NCBI RefSeq assembly: GCF_038396675.1
Contig: NC_088932.1
Coordinates: 25,605,001 to 25,669,000 of the forward strand
Origin: Hydra vulgaris
Taxonomy: Eukaryota; Cnidaria; Hydrozoa; Anthoathecata; Hydridae
Direction: 5' to 3'
Length of the DNA: 64,000 nt
This document shows, in pieces, positions 22,975-34,556 of the stretch (the stretch's first letter is position 1; the number at the start of each line of letters is the position of its first letter). The translations under genes were made by a program, and so were the position numbers. The notes below the pieces were generated by a model. The model had not been told where the DNA came from and searched no databases. It saw only the letters and a list, made by a program, of their open reading frames with translations.

Positions 22975-23205
22975 CACTGTGGACCAGAGTGACCGCCAGG
23001 TTAAGTTGTTCCCCAGGTCTGATTTTTCTTTTTCAATAGTTGGGTATACATTAGTAGACACCATTTATGACATTAAAAACTTCTGAGTGATTGGACAAAG
23101 TCAAAAAAAATTTGCTCAAAAATATTTATTTTTAGCCATAAAAATCTTAATAAATTAGGTGAAAACTCGGTTGAAAGTCCGCGAAATTATTAAATTGTAT
23201 ATACA

Positions 23206-26200
23206 ATGGCGGACTGTTTACATAAAACGTGTGCTGTTTGTCTTACACAGTTCGGGAAAAAGTCATCTAAAATTCAAAAGATCACTCCAGCAATTGAAAC
23301 AAAGATAAAAAATTTCGTCTGGAGTCAGTATAGTTTAGATGTAACCAACTATCCCAAGGTTATTTGTAACAATTGCCACAGAAACCTCTATGATCTCGAC
23401 AAGAACAAGGTGGAGTACCTAGGGAACTGGATAGTGAAGATATCCAAGGTAAAATTCATGTTAATCTGTTTTTTTATGTATAATAATTATTATTAATTTC
23501 TAGTTAATACTTTGTTATATTTACAATCACACAGTTTCTTAACTAAAAATATAGAACAGATTTTTTTTTTAATACATGTTATTACAACATTTACTTCCCA
23601 GTCGGCAAATTTAGTTGTAAATGCGCATTAGAAACTCGTTTAAATACGTATCGATGTGGTATGTATGTTAGCCATTTTATCGTGTCGAATACGCATAAGA
23701 AATACGCATTAGATGCGTATAAAGACAGGTATACAATACGACGCCTTCTGAGTATCAAACTCGCATTTGAAACTCTTGTAAACACGTATAAAACACGATA
23801 ACCAGAGAATATTCAATACGATATTTTCCTGGTATTACATGCGCATTTAAAACTTTCCAGAATACGCATTATTTACGAATATTTGTTAGCCATTTTATCG
23901 TGTCAAACGCGCATTAAAAATAGACATCAGATGCGTATACAGACAGTATACAATACGACATCAGATGCGTAGACAGGTATACAATACGACGCCTACTGAG
24001 TATCAAACTCGCATTTAAACACGTATAAAACACGATAACCAGAGAATATTCAATACAATTTTGTTAACTAATATGAATTCATAACATAATGAAAATGACT
24101 AGCAGTAAGCAACCCATAATACGGGTTATGAGTTATTAAATCGTTAATAACAATAAAAACACATTAATAACTTGATATATTATCTAAAAAATTAAATACA
24201 AATTTATCTATAAATATTTTAACTTTGACTCCCTTTCAGTAACGTCATTGCTTATAGTTAACGACGAAGACCGCATTAACATCAGTTGAGTTCTTTTTAA
24301 AATCTGTCACAACACAGGTACCAGAAACGGAAAGCCTGAAAATACCTAAAAAATAAAATTAAAAAAAAAATTACAATTTTTAATTACAAAAGTACTATTT
24401 GCATTGTATTGTTAGTAGAATTAGGATAATAATAACAGAAAATATATATTCCGTGACTACAGAATAATTAAAAAAGATTATAAAAAGGCTAGACAACACA
24501 ATGTAGTAACACTGGCAAACAACACCACAACTTAATAAAATATTTTATTAACTTAAATACTTGGACTGAAAAGATTTTATTTATTACAATATTTGAACAA
24601 TCGAGGGACAATTATAGTTAAACAATTTAAACAATTATACCATAAAATAGCAAGCAAATCGTAAAATATTTCTTAGAAATGATCTATTTTTTTCATTTGA
24701 CTACTATTTTTAAGTTGCCTATAAGCATTTACATTATAACTTCGTTGAGCCTAATACTATCTATTTCAATTTAACTATTATCATTAAACATATTACCAGT
24801 AATCTTATATTGCTGCAACTGAATAAATGAACGTAAAAGAATCTTACAAATTGTGATCTTTTCTAATCAAAGACTTTATTTAAACTTAAGATTTATTGAA
24901 ATCCATATCTTTTTATATGTTTACATACATCAGTCGTTTATCAAAAATATTAAACAACATTTATTTACATCAATTATTTTTAATTAAAAAAGAATCTAGA
25001 CTACAATGCACAAAATTATTTTTACCTTAATGCATAAAAATAATAAATGCACAACCTTGTATAAAAAAATGAAGCAATGTCAATCAGTATATTTTACTCT
25101 AAATTAATTATATATATATATATATATATATATATATATATATATATATATATATATATATATATATATATATATATATATATACAGGGGAACATGGGGT
25201 AAAATGACGAATGGGGCAAGATGACGACCTACAGTTATCTCTTAAGCAAAACTAAATATAAAAGTTGATTTTAGCTGAAGGGGAAGTAGATTTTACTAGA
25301 TCAATGGTTTCTTTTTAAATATTATTTTTGTGACGAAATCTAAGTATTAAAATAGTTTTTCCGACATTGAAAAAAAAACTTTTTATCCTCGTTTGACTTG
25401 ATTTATTACATTGCTATATCACCAGCTAAAGGTAAGTTTTATTTTTTGGGACAGACTAAGATACAGGCGTTTTTTGAAACAGTCGTCATCTTGCCCCATG
25501 TTCCCCTATATATCTATTCACATACCTTTAAAAAGTGGTATTACACTTTACACAATGAAATATGGAAATACATCATTTTTTTCAACTACTTTTAAAAGGA
25601 ATTTATTTATTTTTTCTAGTCTGTTATTTTTTCTAAGAAAGAATGTTTATAAAGATACAGAGAAATATAAAATATACTGAAATATAGGCAGATTTATGTT
25701 TATAAACTTTTGTGTCAACAAATTACAGTCAGTTTTCCATGTTAAATACATAAAATATATATCTAATATATCTAATATAACATATACCAAATATCAAATA
25801 AATCCAATATAAAATAAAACAAAACAGTAAACTTACTCAAATCAGTATCAGTTATACCGTGTGAAATAACTAAAAAACACTTCAATTATTTTCAATTGCT
25901 CTAAAAAATAACTTTTAGCTCTTTCCAATTGCACTAAAAAGAAAAAAAAAAACTTACTTAGATAAGTTGCCTAGTTATTAAGAATCTGAAGACAAATAAG
26001 TAAAAAAACAAAGAACAAACAAACATTTATTTGTTAAAACTACTATATTTAAACAAATTAAATTTAAAAGTGTAATGCCAACTCTCCTTTTAGGCTAAAA
26101 AATTTTTTTAGCTCAAATTTGCTTGCATACCTTGCTTGTAAAACCATGTGAATAAGAAACACATTTAGAAAAGCCAAGAAACTACTTAAAGATGACATAT

Positions 26201-29200
26201 GCAACATTGAAGTTTGAACGTTCACTGGACTAATTATTAGCAGATGTTTTTAAAAAATTCATAAAAATTTATATATATTCGTTCTTTTATATTGCATAAG
26301 TCCATCATATGATAAATCTGAAATGAAAAAATGTAACGGATAAGTAAATACAAAGAAAAACATCATATATGAATCACAAATCAATATATCAGATAAAGAT
26401 AAGATGTCATGACAAGAGAGTAGTAGTTGTTAAATATTGTTATTTCATGTTAGCTTTTTGAAAACAATTCATGTTGGTACGTCATGGTTCTAACAATTTA
26501 AATTAAGATATAAACAAAATGTATATATGGCAAAATGATTTTTTTTGAGTGGCTTTTACTGAACGATTAAAAGCAGTGAGTTTCAATAATAAAACCACTT
26601 ATAATTTTTAACAATAGACACCAACATAAAGGTAAGCCAAATGTAACATTAGTAACATAAATAACAACTTCATGCAAAATCTTGCTCAACACGTTTGCCA
26701 AGTCACACACTTTGAAAACATGGTCCATAAATATTATAAGAAGTGTTTATATATGTTATATAAATTTAAATAAATATGTTGTGTTTTATAGTTAGTATAT
26801 ATGTTTATATTATGTTGTTTCTGTGTCATGGAAACAACATAATATAAACATATATACTAACTATAAAACACAATATATTTATTTAAATTTATATAACATA
26901 TATAAACACTTCTTATAATATTTATATACACAATAGATACATTTTACACTATTTTAAAAATGCATTTATAAAACAATTATATAACACATATTACCACATA
27001 CATATATTTATCAAAAACATTATTATTTTGAACATAATATAAACATATATGCAAACTATAAACATATATAGCTTGAATTGCGTGAACAAAAAATTTAAAA
27101 ATAACATGAAAAAATCTAAAAAGATTCATATATATATATATTATATATATATATATATATATATATATATATATATATATATATATATATATATATATAT
27201 ATATATATATATATATATATATATACATACATATATATATATATATATATATATATATATATATATATATATATATATATATATATATATATATATATAT
27301 ATATTCATATATAAAGACATATATCTCGTAATAAAATATCAAATTATAATCATATTTAATTTAAATCAAATACTTATTGAATAAAGAACAAAAAACAGAT
27401 AAAAGAACTACAATCCTAATAACAAAATTTAACGCTTAGCAACAATTAAAATGTCAGTGCTGGCTCAAAAATTTAACTTACTTTTCTAAATTTTCTAAAA
27501 CAGAACAAAAAAAGGTAATAGCATAACAGAAATGTCAATAAAATAGTAATCAACGGAATAAAATAAGCAAGGTATGAAATGATAGGATTTAACGTATATT
27601 TGAATTATATTAATTTAGGACCTCATAAAACTAAATTAATAAATTTAAAAGTAGTAATAAATATTTTTATGATAAAGTTTTAGTAACTCTTTTAGTGCAA
27701 AAAAAGTATTGTAAGTAAAACTGTACTGGAGATAATTTACTAAATTTCTCAAGAAACCTTTTTAGTTTAAATTTTATATTCGCTATATCAGTTTAAGCAT
27801 GCGCTTTAAAAGTAAAGAATCTCGTTTTTCCCTTATTTATTAATATTTGTTCAAAATCGGGTTCAATATCATATCCGATTTTGATCAAATATTATTAATA
27901 CGTATTTTTGATAAATAAGTGGTACTGAACTCGAATTCGAAACTTAAAACTAAATGCGTATTTTTCTGGTATCAATGGCGGTATGTTATACGTGATCAAT
28001 ACTCCGAGTATTTACAATACTAGATATGCCGACTGGGAGTAAGCAACCCATAATACGGGTTATGAGTTATTAAATCATTAATAACAATAAAAACACATTA
28101 ATAACTTGATATATTATCTAAAAAATTAAATACAAATTTATCTATAAATATTTAACTTTGACTCCCTTTCAGTAACGTCATTGCTTATAGTTAACGACGA
28201 AGACCGCATTAACATCAGTTGAGTTCTTTTTAAAATCTGTCACAACACAGGTACCAGAAACGGAAAGCCTGAAAATACCTAAAAAATAAAATTAAAAAAA
28301 AAATTACAATTTTTAATTACAAAAGTACTATTTGCATTGTATTGTTAGTAGAATTAGGATAATAATAACAGAAAATATATATTCCGTGACTACAGAATAA
28401 TTAAAAAAGATTATAAAAAGGCTAGACAACACAATGTAGTAACACTGGCAAATAACACCACAACTTAATAAAATATTTTATTAACTTAAATACTTGGACT
28501 GAAAAGATTTTATTTATTACAATATTTGAACAATCGAGGGACAATTATAGTTAAACAATTTAAACAATTATACCATAAAATAGCAAGCAAATCGTAAAAT
28601 ATTTCTTAGAAATGATCTATTTTTTTCATTTGACTACTATTTTCAAGTTGCCTATAAGCATTTACATTAATAACTTTGTTGAGCCTAATACTATCTATTT
28701 CAATTTAACTATTATCATTAAACATATTACCAGTAATCTTACTATTGTTGCAACTGAATAAATGAACGTAAAAGAATCTTACAAATTGTGATCTTTTCTA
28801 ATCAAAGACTTTATTTAAACTTAAGATTTATTGAAATCCATATCTTTTTATATGTTTACATACATTAGTCGTTTATCAAAAATATTAAACAACATTTATT
28901 TACATCAATTATTTTTAATTAAAAAAGAATCTTGACTACAATGCACAAAATTATTTTTACCTTAATGCATAAAAATAATAAATGCACAATCTTGTATAAA
29001 AAAATGAAGCAATGCCAATCAGTATATTTTACTCTAAATTAATTATTTAAATATATATATATATATATATATATATATATATATATATATATATATATAT
29101 ATATATATATATATATATATATATATATATATATATATATATATATATATATATATATATATATATATATATATAGGGGAACATGGGGTAAAATGACGAA

Positions 29201-34042: not shown

Positions 34043-34214
34043 ACTGAATAATTATATAATTTAATTTAATGTTTATAATTTCAAGTATATATTGTAAAGT
34101 ATATTATTTATAGATTTAGACTTATATTATAACTAGTTAACATAAAGCTTTTTTACTTTGTGCTTTTTTAGTATTTGTATAGGATAAGTTACACCTATTT
34201 TTTAATTTTTTTTT

Positions 34215-34556
34215 TTTCAATTTTTTTTAACACCCTAGAAGTTTTAAATGTTATAAATAGTGTCTTCCCAAAATGTTAGAAATAGTGTCTTCCCAAAATG
34301 TTAGAAATAGTGTATACCCAACTATTGAAAAAAAAAATCAGACCTAGGGAACATTTTAATCTGGTGGTCACTCAGGTCCACAGTGATAAGTATAGCTATT
34401 TTTTGATTTTTTTGTCTCATTTTTTTTTTGAAAATTTCAACACCCCAGAAGTTCTAAATGTTATAAATGGTGTCTACTAATGTATATCTAGCTATTGCAA
34501 AAAAAAAATTAGACCTGGGGAACAACTCAACCTGGCGGTCACTCTGGTCCACAGTG
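34215..34556. repeat. Duplicated right terminus of the Chapaev-like element
   Basis: Two diverged copies of the element's right end lie in tandem, the inner ending CACAGTG at 34379-34385 and the outer at 34550-34556, 171 bp apart. The inner copy contains a threefold ~25-bp repeat (GTGTCTTCCCAAAATGTTAG) at about 34258-34315. Confidence 0.85.

Follow-up and report, generated by a model that had tools for sequence, protein, structure and literature searches.

Within a 64,000-nucleotide stretch of the Hydra vulgaris genome (RefSeq assembly GCF_038396675.1, contig NC_088932.1, positions 25,605,001 to 25,669,000 of the forward strand; hereafter the window), positions 22975-34556 hold what is very probably an autonomous cut-and-paste DNA transposon of the Chapaev superfamily (CMC group). 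The element is about 3.55 kb long and belongs to a recently mobile family; it entered an older repeat with a 4-bp target site duplication (TSD), and its first intron was later hit by an 8-kb insert. It is a young, well-preserved family member of an already described type, and its link to RAG1 is remote and has already been discussed in the literature. The most novel and more surprising lead of the analysis lies elsewhere in the same genome, where RAG1-N-like domains are fused to transposases that we take to be of the P/THAP9 type.

Ends, target site and nested insert

The insert starts with CACTGTGGACC at 22975, and the reverse complement of this sequence ends at 34556, so that the long inverted repeats beginning CACTGTG reported by an earlier, sequence-only reading are in place, as is the 4-bp AGTT duplication outside them. 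The terminal inverted repeat (TIR) measures about 118 bp, with 106 of 117 aligned bases identical between the left and right ends. Two tandem copies of the right end are present, the inner one ending at 34385, an arrangement found also in 20 sister loci.

Relatives were sought in the genome assembly (911.5 Mb, 15 contigs); only the best candidates were scored, so the counts of matches are lower bounds. The 231-bp left end gave at least 40 scored matches (of 152 candidates), nine of them identical, with the window among these, and 20 of the 40 were retrieved as sister copies. Of the 19 sister copies for which both ends were obtained, 15 lie between identical 4-bp duplications, whose sequence varies from copy to copy (the exceptions are L010, L013, L014 and L023). 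In three diverged subfamilies (L033, L034 and L029) the ends likewise read CACTGTG or CACAATG, next to matching 4-bp duplications (ATAT, ACAT and AGGG), as found by a script that sought such pairs; the same script found no end and duplication pair for a fourth sequence, L032. One end of L033 reads CACAGTG, the sequence of the V(D)J heptamer.

The copy in the window lies within a dispersed repeat, presumably hAT-like; one 83-residue piece of this repeat had no Pfam match at 0.001. A search with the host left flank gave 40 matches, scored from 86 candidates, 39 of them other than the window. All eight of the related host loci that were examined are continuous and lack the insert, six with a single AGTT and two with AATT. 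These empty sites show that the ends and the duplication are no coincidence; the target is clean and the stagger 4 bp.

The interval had at first been taken for a single element, and this proved wrong. In 20 of 20 sister copies, intron 1 reads ...CAT(T/A)TACTT directly followed by (A or G)GTAC... at the corresponding site, without 8,011 bases that are present in the window. These bases form a separate element with the ends CCCAGTCGGCA...TGCCGACTGGG, a second right end near 28037 and no frame longer than 127 codons from stop to stop. The halves of its 3.9-kb tandem duplication are 93-98.5% identical (they differ by 1.5-7%), which exceeds the average difference between Chapaev copies; the tandem duplication is therefore probably older than the arrival of the nested insert. 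The left end of the nested insert has at least 75 matches (40 of 422 candidates scored), including 22 at 99-100% across the full 400 bp, with the window among them; it is a young multicopy family in its own right. By eye, each tandem half also holds a small element (25187-25507 and 29175-29502) with inverted ends GGGGAACATGGGG...CCCCATGTTCCCC that adjoins a TA run.

Reading frame, catalytic core and family

The Chapaev element carries the four-exon gene that had been proposed for it, with 1962 coding bases (653 codons) open from ATG to stop. Openness alone cannot fix the exons, since 70 splice combinations stay open even when exon 1 and the 5′ limit of exon 2 are held fixed. The joins of exons 2-4 are supported by the protein of the L029 subfamily, which is without introns 2 and 3 and runs uninterrupted over both later junctions. 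The donor of the third intron is GC and not GT (CAG/GCAAGTA). Wherever sister copies still have the splice sites, the bases there are the same.

The candidate catalytic residues named at the outset, D306, D374 and E610/E614, stand at those positions and, together with C393/C396, L461-H462 and H588/H593, are invariant in six aligned sequences, the other five being 47-59% identical to the window. Mouse RAG1 (numbered by its PDB letters) has D600, D708, C727/C730, L794-H795, H937/H942 and E962 in the same order. Three of the spacings are near-equal between the window and mouse RAG1: D to CxxC (19 and 19), CxxC to LH (65 and 64) and H to E (21, counted to E614, and 20), the last of which favours E614 over E610. 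Once spliced, the four exons would yield a 653-residue transposase whose N-terminal zinc domain (two CxxC pairs followed by CxxC...HxC) would bind DNA or partners at the element ends. As in RAG1, the CxxC/HxxxxH zinc site would hold together its RNase H-like core, which would use D306, D374 and most likely E614 to cut at the CAC/GTG ends and join them to target strands 4 bp apart, a chemistry that we propose by analogy with the group.

The ends, the duplication length and the D/D/CxxC/LH/HxxxxH/E signature together point to Chapaev. This superfamily was described in 2007 (Kapitonov and Jurka, as cited in PMC4079192); passages of the latter paper give it TIRs ending 5′-CAC...GTG-3′, its section 14 names the C(2)C, LH and H(4)H residues, and the legend to its tree of Chapaev transposases contains Hydra abbreviations. 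The TSD of Chapaev elements is 3 to 4 bp long. The window element has 5′-CAC...GTG-3′ ends, a 4-bp TSD, a DDE core with C(2)C, LH and H(4)H, and an N-terminal zinc domain. No essential difference from the superfamily was found; its own traits are the tandemly duplicated right end, the GC-AG third intron and a protein with no RING finger above the cut-off after the zinc motifs (zf-RING_6, E 1.3).

Ends of the mostly 5′-CA..TG-3′ kind and a C(2)C/H(3-4)H signature are, according to a passage of PMC12730594, common to the CMC/CMCT lineages, and the element might on that ground be placed in another of them (Transib, EnSpm/CACTA, Mirage or Chapaev3) and not in canonical Chapaev. We consider this improbable: the sister-copy TSDs, 4 bp long and of varied sequence, misfit both the 3-bp TWA given for Chapaev3 in one part of PMC4079192 and the 5 bp given for Transib in one part of PMC8355894, and the N-terminal zinc domain fits Chapaev. 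Set beside RAG1 and Transib, the element is alike in the order D, D, CxxC, LH, HxxxxH, E, with the three near-equal spacings, and in its heptamer-like ends (CACTGTG against CACAGTG); it differs in its 4-bp rather than 5-bp duplication, in a core without significant sequence similarity, in having no RING and in an N-terminal domain that is just remotely similar.

The Chapaev family has many close copies. Exon 4 has at least 89 matches (86 of 6,295 candidates scored), and at least 17 are at 98% or more and without a stop, the window among them, 16 extending over residues 1-496 and one over 1-494. Sister copies without inserts or large deletions measure about 3.52-3.57 kb. Their mean divergence per segment is 0.3-1.1% (up to 4% for short segments and single pairs), and the copy nearest to the window differs from it by 0.31%. 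Two of the 20 sister copies bear other inserts, one elsewhere in intron 1 (L028) and one in exon 1 (L015); with these excluded and the window counted, 8 of the 19 copies evaluated keep the four-exon frame intact. Neither exon 4 nor alignment A5 had a relative in viral_contigs. A frame of 1,430 residues at L031 was discarded because of a run of N. Two copies on different contigs, L013 and L022, lack one and the same internal stretch (window 33012-33720), as though a shortened copy had gone on to transpose; a perfect 4-bp duplication flanks L022 but not L013.

The suggestion that the transposon is possibly active is thus well supported for the family, which is young and multicopy with several intact copies, and is unproven for the copy in the window. 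That copy could instead be a dead relic with a frame open by luck, since, besides the 8-kb insert, it has a 20-bp insertion of its own in intron 3, and 11 of the 19 evaluated copies are broken. The near-identical copies, the intact duplications and the several intact frames leave this explanation with little likelihood. The window copy may or may not still be active: its frame is intact, but its transcript would need to lose an intron of 8.6 kb by splicing. The 20-bp insertion (about 32489-32514), absent from the 18 aligned sister copies in which this part is preserved, resembles by eye the nested insert near 31104-31129, as if templated from it.

Several results weigh against the reading of the element as an autonomous, recently mobile Chapaev. 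The superfamily assignment is drawn from signature features, and two spacings are unequal between the window and mouse RAG1 (D to D, 68 and 108; LH to HxxxxH, 126 and 142). A search of PDB with the core gave no significant match to RAG1, the best hit being a ribosomal protein at E 0.99. Its hhalign comparison with mouse RAG1 was not significant, 11 of 60 shuffles reaching the score, although the best local alignment nonetheless pairs E614 with E962. Single-sequence AlphaFold2 models had a mean predicted local distance difference test score (pLDDT) of 50.4 for exon 1 and 35.8 for exon 4, too poor for comparison. The intact copies vary at 36 codons, 25 of them non-synonymously, and the ratio of non-synonymous to synonymous polymorphism (pN/pS) of 0.61 is indistinguishable from neutral (p 0.22). 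In favour of the reading, the comparison with the 59%-identical subfamily gives a non-synonymous divergence (dN) of 0.34 and a synonymous divergence (dS) of about 2.8, which is near saturation; these values suggest constraint over a longer time.

The N-terminal zinc domain and the RAG1 N-terminus

Exon 1 does have the two CxxC pairs that had led to its being called RAG1-N-like, at residues 9 and 54, and a third CxxC follows at 115. The resemblance to RAG1 stands at long range only, by way of P-type transposase domains, and no direct match was obtained in Pfam, in PDB or by hhalign to mouse RAG1 alone. The window protein has no match to a RAG1 family in Pfam, profiles of five and of nine Chapaev N-domains found no RAG1 in PDB at E≤10, and the hhalign comparison with mouse RAG1 alone gave a probability of 0.3%, with 78 of 150 shuffles reaching the score. 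In Pfam, exon 1 scores best with zf-AD (E 5.2e-5, 23.9 bits; cut-off 28); taken alone, it also gives zf-C3HC4 at 17.2 bits (cut-off 21), over residues 2-18 only.

Of 219 candidates in a genome search with the Pfam family RAG1_imp_bd, 137 were scored, giving at least 145 matches with E no higher than 10, the best at 1.6e-9; at least 90 places are individually over the family cut-off, at least 51 have E below 0.001, and the window locus is not among the listed matches. Six places were opened and three proteins scanned: L036 (617 residues), L039 (695) and L041 (530) have RAG1_imp_bd at 1.4e-10, 1.7e-6 and 4.7e-8, respectively. In all three the domain TNP-like_RNaseH_N, presumably the P/THAP9-type catalytic domain, lies downstream in the same open frame (9.1e-23, 2.4e-18 and 2.5e-9). 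NCBIfam had no match for two proteins. Of the other three places opened, L037 and L038 hold copies related to L036, and L040 consists mostly of N; L036 and L037 have a common sharp left boundary, and these elements are putatively mobile.

A profile of seven P-type N-domains, chosen from 16 by excluding near-duplicates and broken ones, finds the RAG1 N-terminus at 1.8e-13 (21wb) and 2.8e-10 (6oem); a four-sequence profile does so at 1.1e-11 and 8.6e-10. The three P-type proteins resemble Chapaev in having an N-terminal CxxC...PxxxCxxC zinc domain that is remotely alignable with that of Chapaev, whereas their TNP-like RNase H catalytic domain is unrelated to the Chapaev core. Since their N-domains match RAG1 and the Chapaev domain does not, the window element is not the closest relative of the RAG1 N-terminus in its own genome.

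The bridge between the two was measured by hhalign with nine Chapaev sequences (of 17, sister copies aside; first 85 columns) against the seven P-type N-domains, the controls being 150 cysteine-keeping shuffles of the Chapaev side only. The comparison gave a probability of 93.8% and a score of 42.1, which none of the 150 shuffles reached (maximum 25.7), and 88.2% with RAG1 added to the P-type domains, again with 0 of 150. Smaller alignments used at first gave 68% for the P-type domains (0/150), 43% with RAG1 added (1/150), 9.1% for ZAD (1/150) and 0.5% for RAG1 alone. We conclude that the Chapaev N-domain, probably of the Chapa type, is likely, though not proven, to be remotely homologous to the RAG1 N-terminus.

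An alternative is that exon 1 encodes a zf-AD (ZAD) zinc finger recruited independently and unrelated to the RAG1 N-terminus. With zf-AD as the best Pfam match, albeit below the cut-off, and no direct match to RAG1, this origin deserves consideration; we hold it rather unlikely, because the Chapaev N-domains match three solved ZAD chains (score 21.2, 14.5%, 1 of 150 shuffles) less strongly than they match the P-type domains. The RAG1-N-like profile, for its part, shows a weak affinity for ZAD (a probability of 50% by hhalign; 7po9 at E 0.038), and the Chapaev domain, the RAG1-N-like domains and ZAD may therefore have one ancestor.

The sequence-only reading had also proposed that the RAG1 N-terminus arose in a transposon other than Transib. 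This idea is not new: a passage of PMC4411706 (2015) equates the Chapa domain of Chapaev with the N-terminal part of RAG1, and a passage of PMC8355894 credits the mollusc transposon N-RAG-TP for the RAG1 N-terminus. The former paper also states, in the part that concerns us, that the Chapa domain is encoded by no other known transposable element, and the P-type fusions speak against the claim of exclusivity to Chapaev as worded there. Among the papers listed by searches of one open-access library, none was evidently on a fusion of RAG1-N with a P element; such a fusion may be recorded in Repbase or by Panchin and Moroz (2008).

Annotated features and implications

Table 1. Features of the Chapaev element and its nested insert (window positions), and the fusion proteins found elsewhere in the genome (locus positions)
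Feature	Position	Strand	Basis
Left TSD copy, AGTT	22971-22974		sequence and empty sites
Left TIR, begins CACTGTG	22975-23092	+	106/117 aligned bases equal to right end
Exon 1, N-terminal zinc domain (C9-x2-C12, C54-x2-C57)	23206-23448	+	translation; zf-AD below cut-off
Intron 1, enlarged by nested insert	23449-32069	+	sister-copy comparison
Nested unrelated insert, 8011 bp, TIR CCCAGTCGGCA, TT duplication, 3.9-kb tandem duplication inside	23597-31607		absent at site in sister copies
Exon 2, third CxxC (C115, C118)	32070-32193	+	subfamily alignment
Exon 3, H128-x-C130; then GC donor	32344-32445	+	subfamily alignment
Exon 4, DDE core (D306, D374, C393/C396, L461-H462, H588/H593, E610/E614); stop 34040-34042	32550-34042	+	six-sequence alignment
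Inner copy of right terminal repeat, the right end being duplicated in tandem (inner limit approximate)	34256-34385	-	also in 20 sister loci
Outer right TIR, ends CACAGTG	34439-34556	-	match to left end
Right TSD copy, AGTT	34557-34560		sequence and empty sites
RAG1_imp_bd and TNP-like RNase H fusions	L036:2416-4266 (-), L039:1915-3999 (-), L041:715-2304 (+)		genome C5, C6, C7

Outside the transposon, not everything in the window is broken, as an open frame of 336 residues at 40852-41859 (-) matches 7tm_1 at 8.1e-28, a rhodopsin-family receptor. A further open frame at 48501-49100 (+) matches the DDE_1 endonuclease at 3.2e-6 and is probably a transposase fragment.

As a young multicopy family, these Chapaev elements offer an animal system for testing a CMC-type transposase. 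The P-type fusions matter more for the origin of V(D)J recombination, since the 2015 argument on the ancestry of the RAG1 N-terminus, in the passage of PMC4411706 that sets it out, uses the exclusivity of the Chapa domain. In this genome closer RAG1-N relatives sit on P/THAP9-type transposases and only a remote version on Chapaev. We put forward, tentatively and at somewhat less than even chances, that the N-terminal domain of RAG1 has passed as a mobile module between transposase superfamilies that are not related to each other. On this view the RAG1 N-terminus need not descend with a Chapaev/Transib ancestor, and a P-type element could have been its donor or its recipient.

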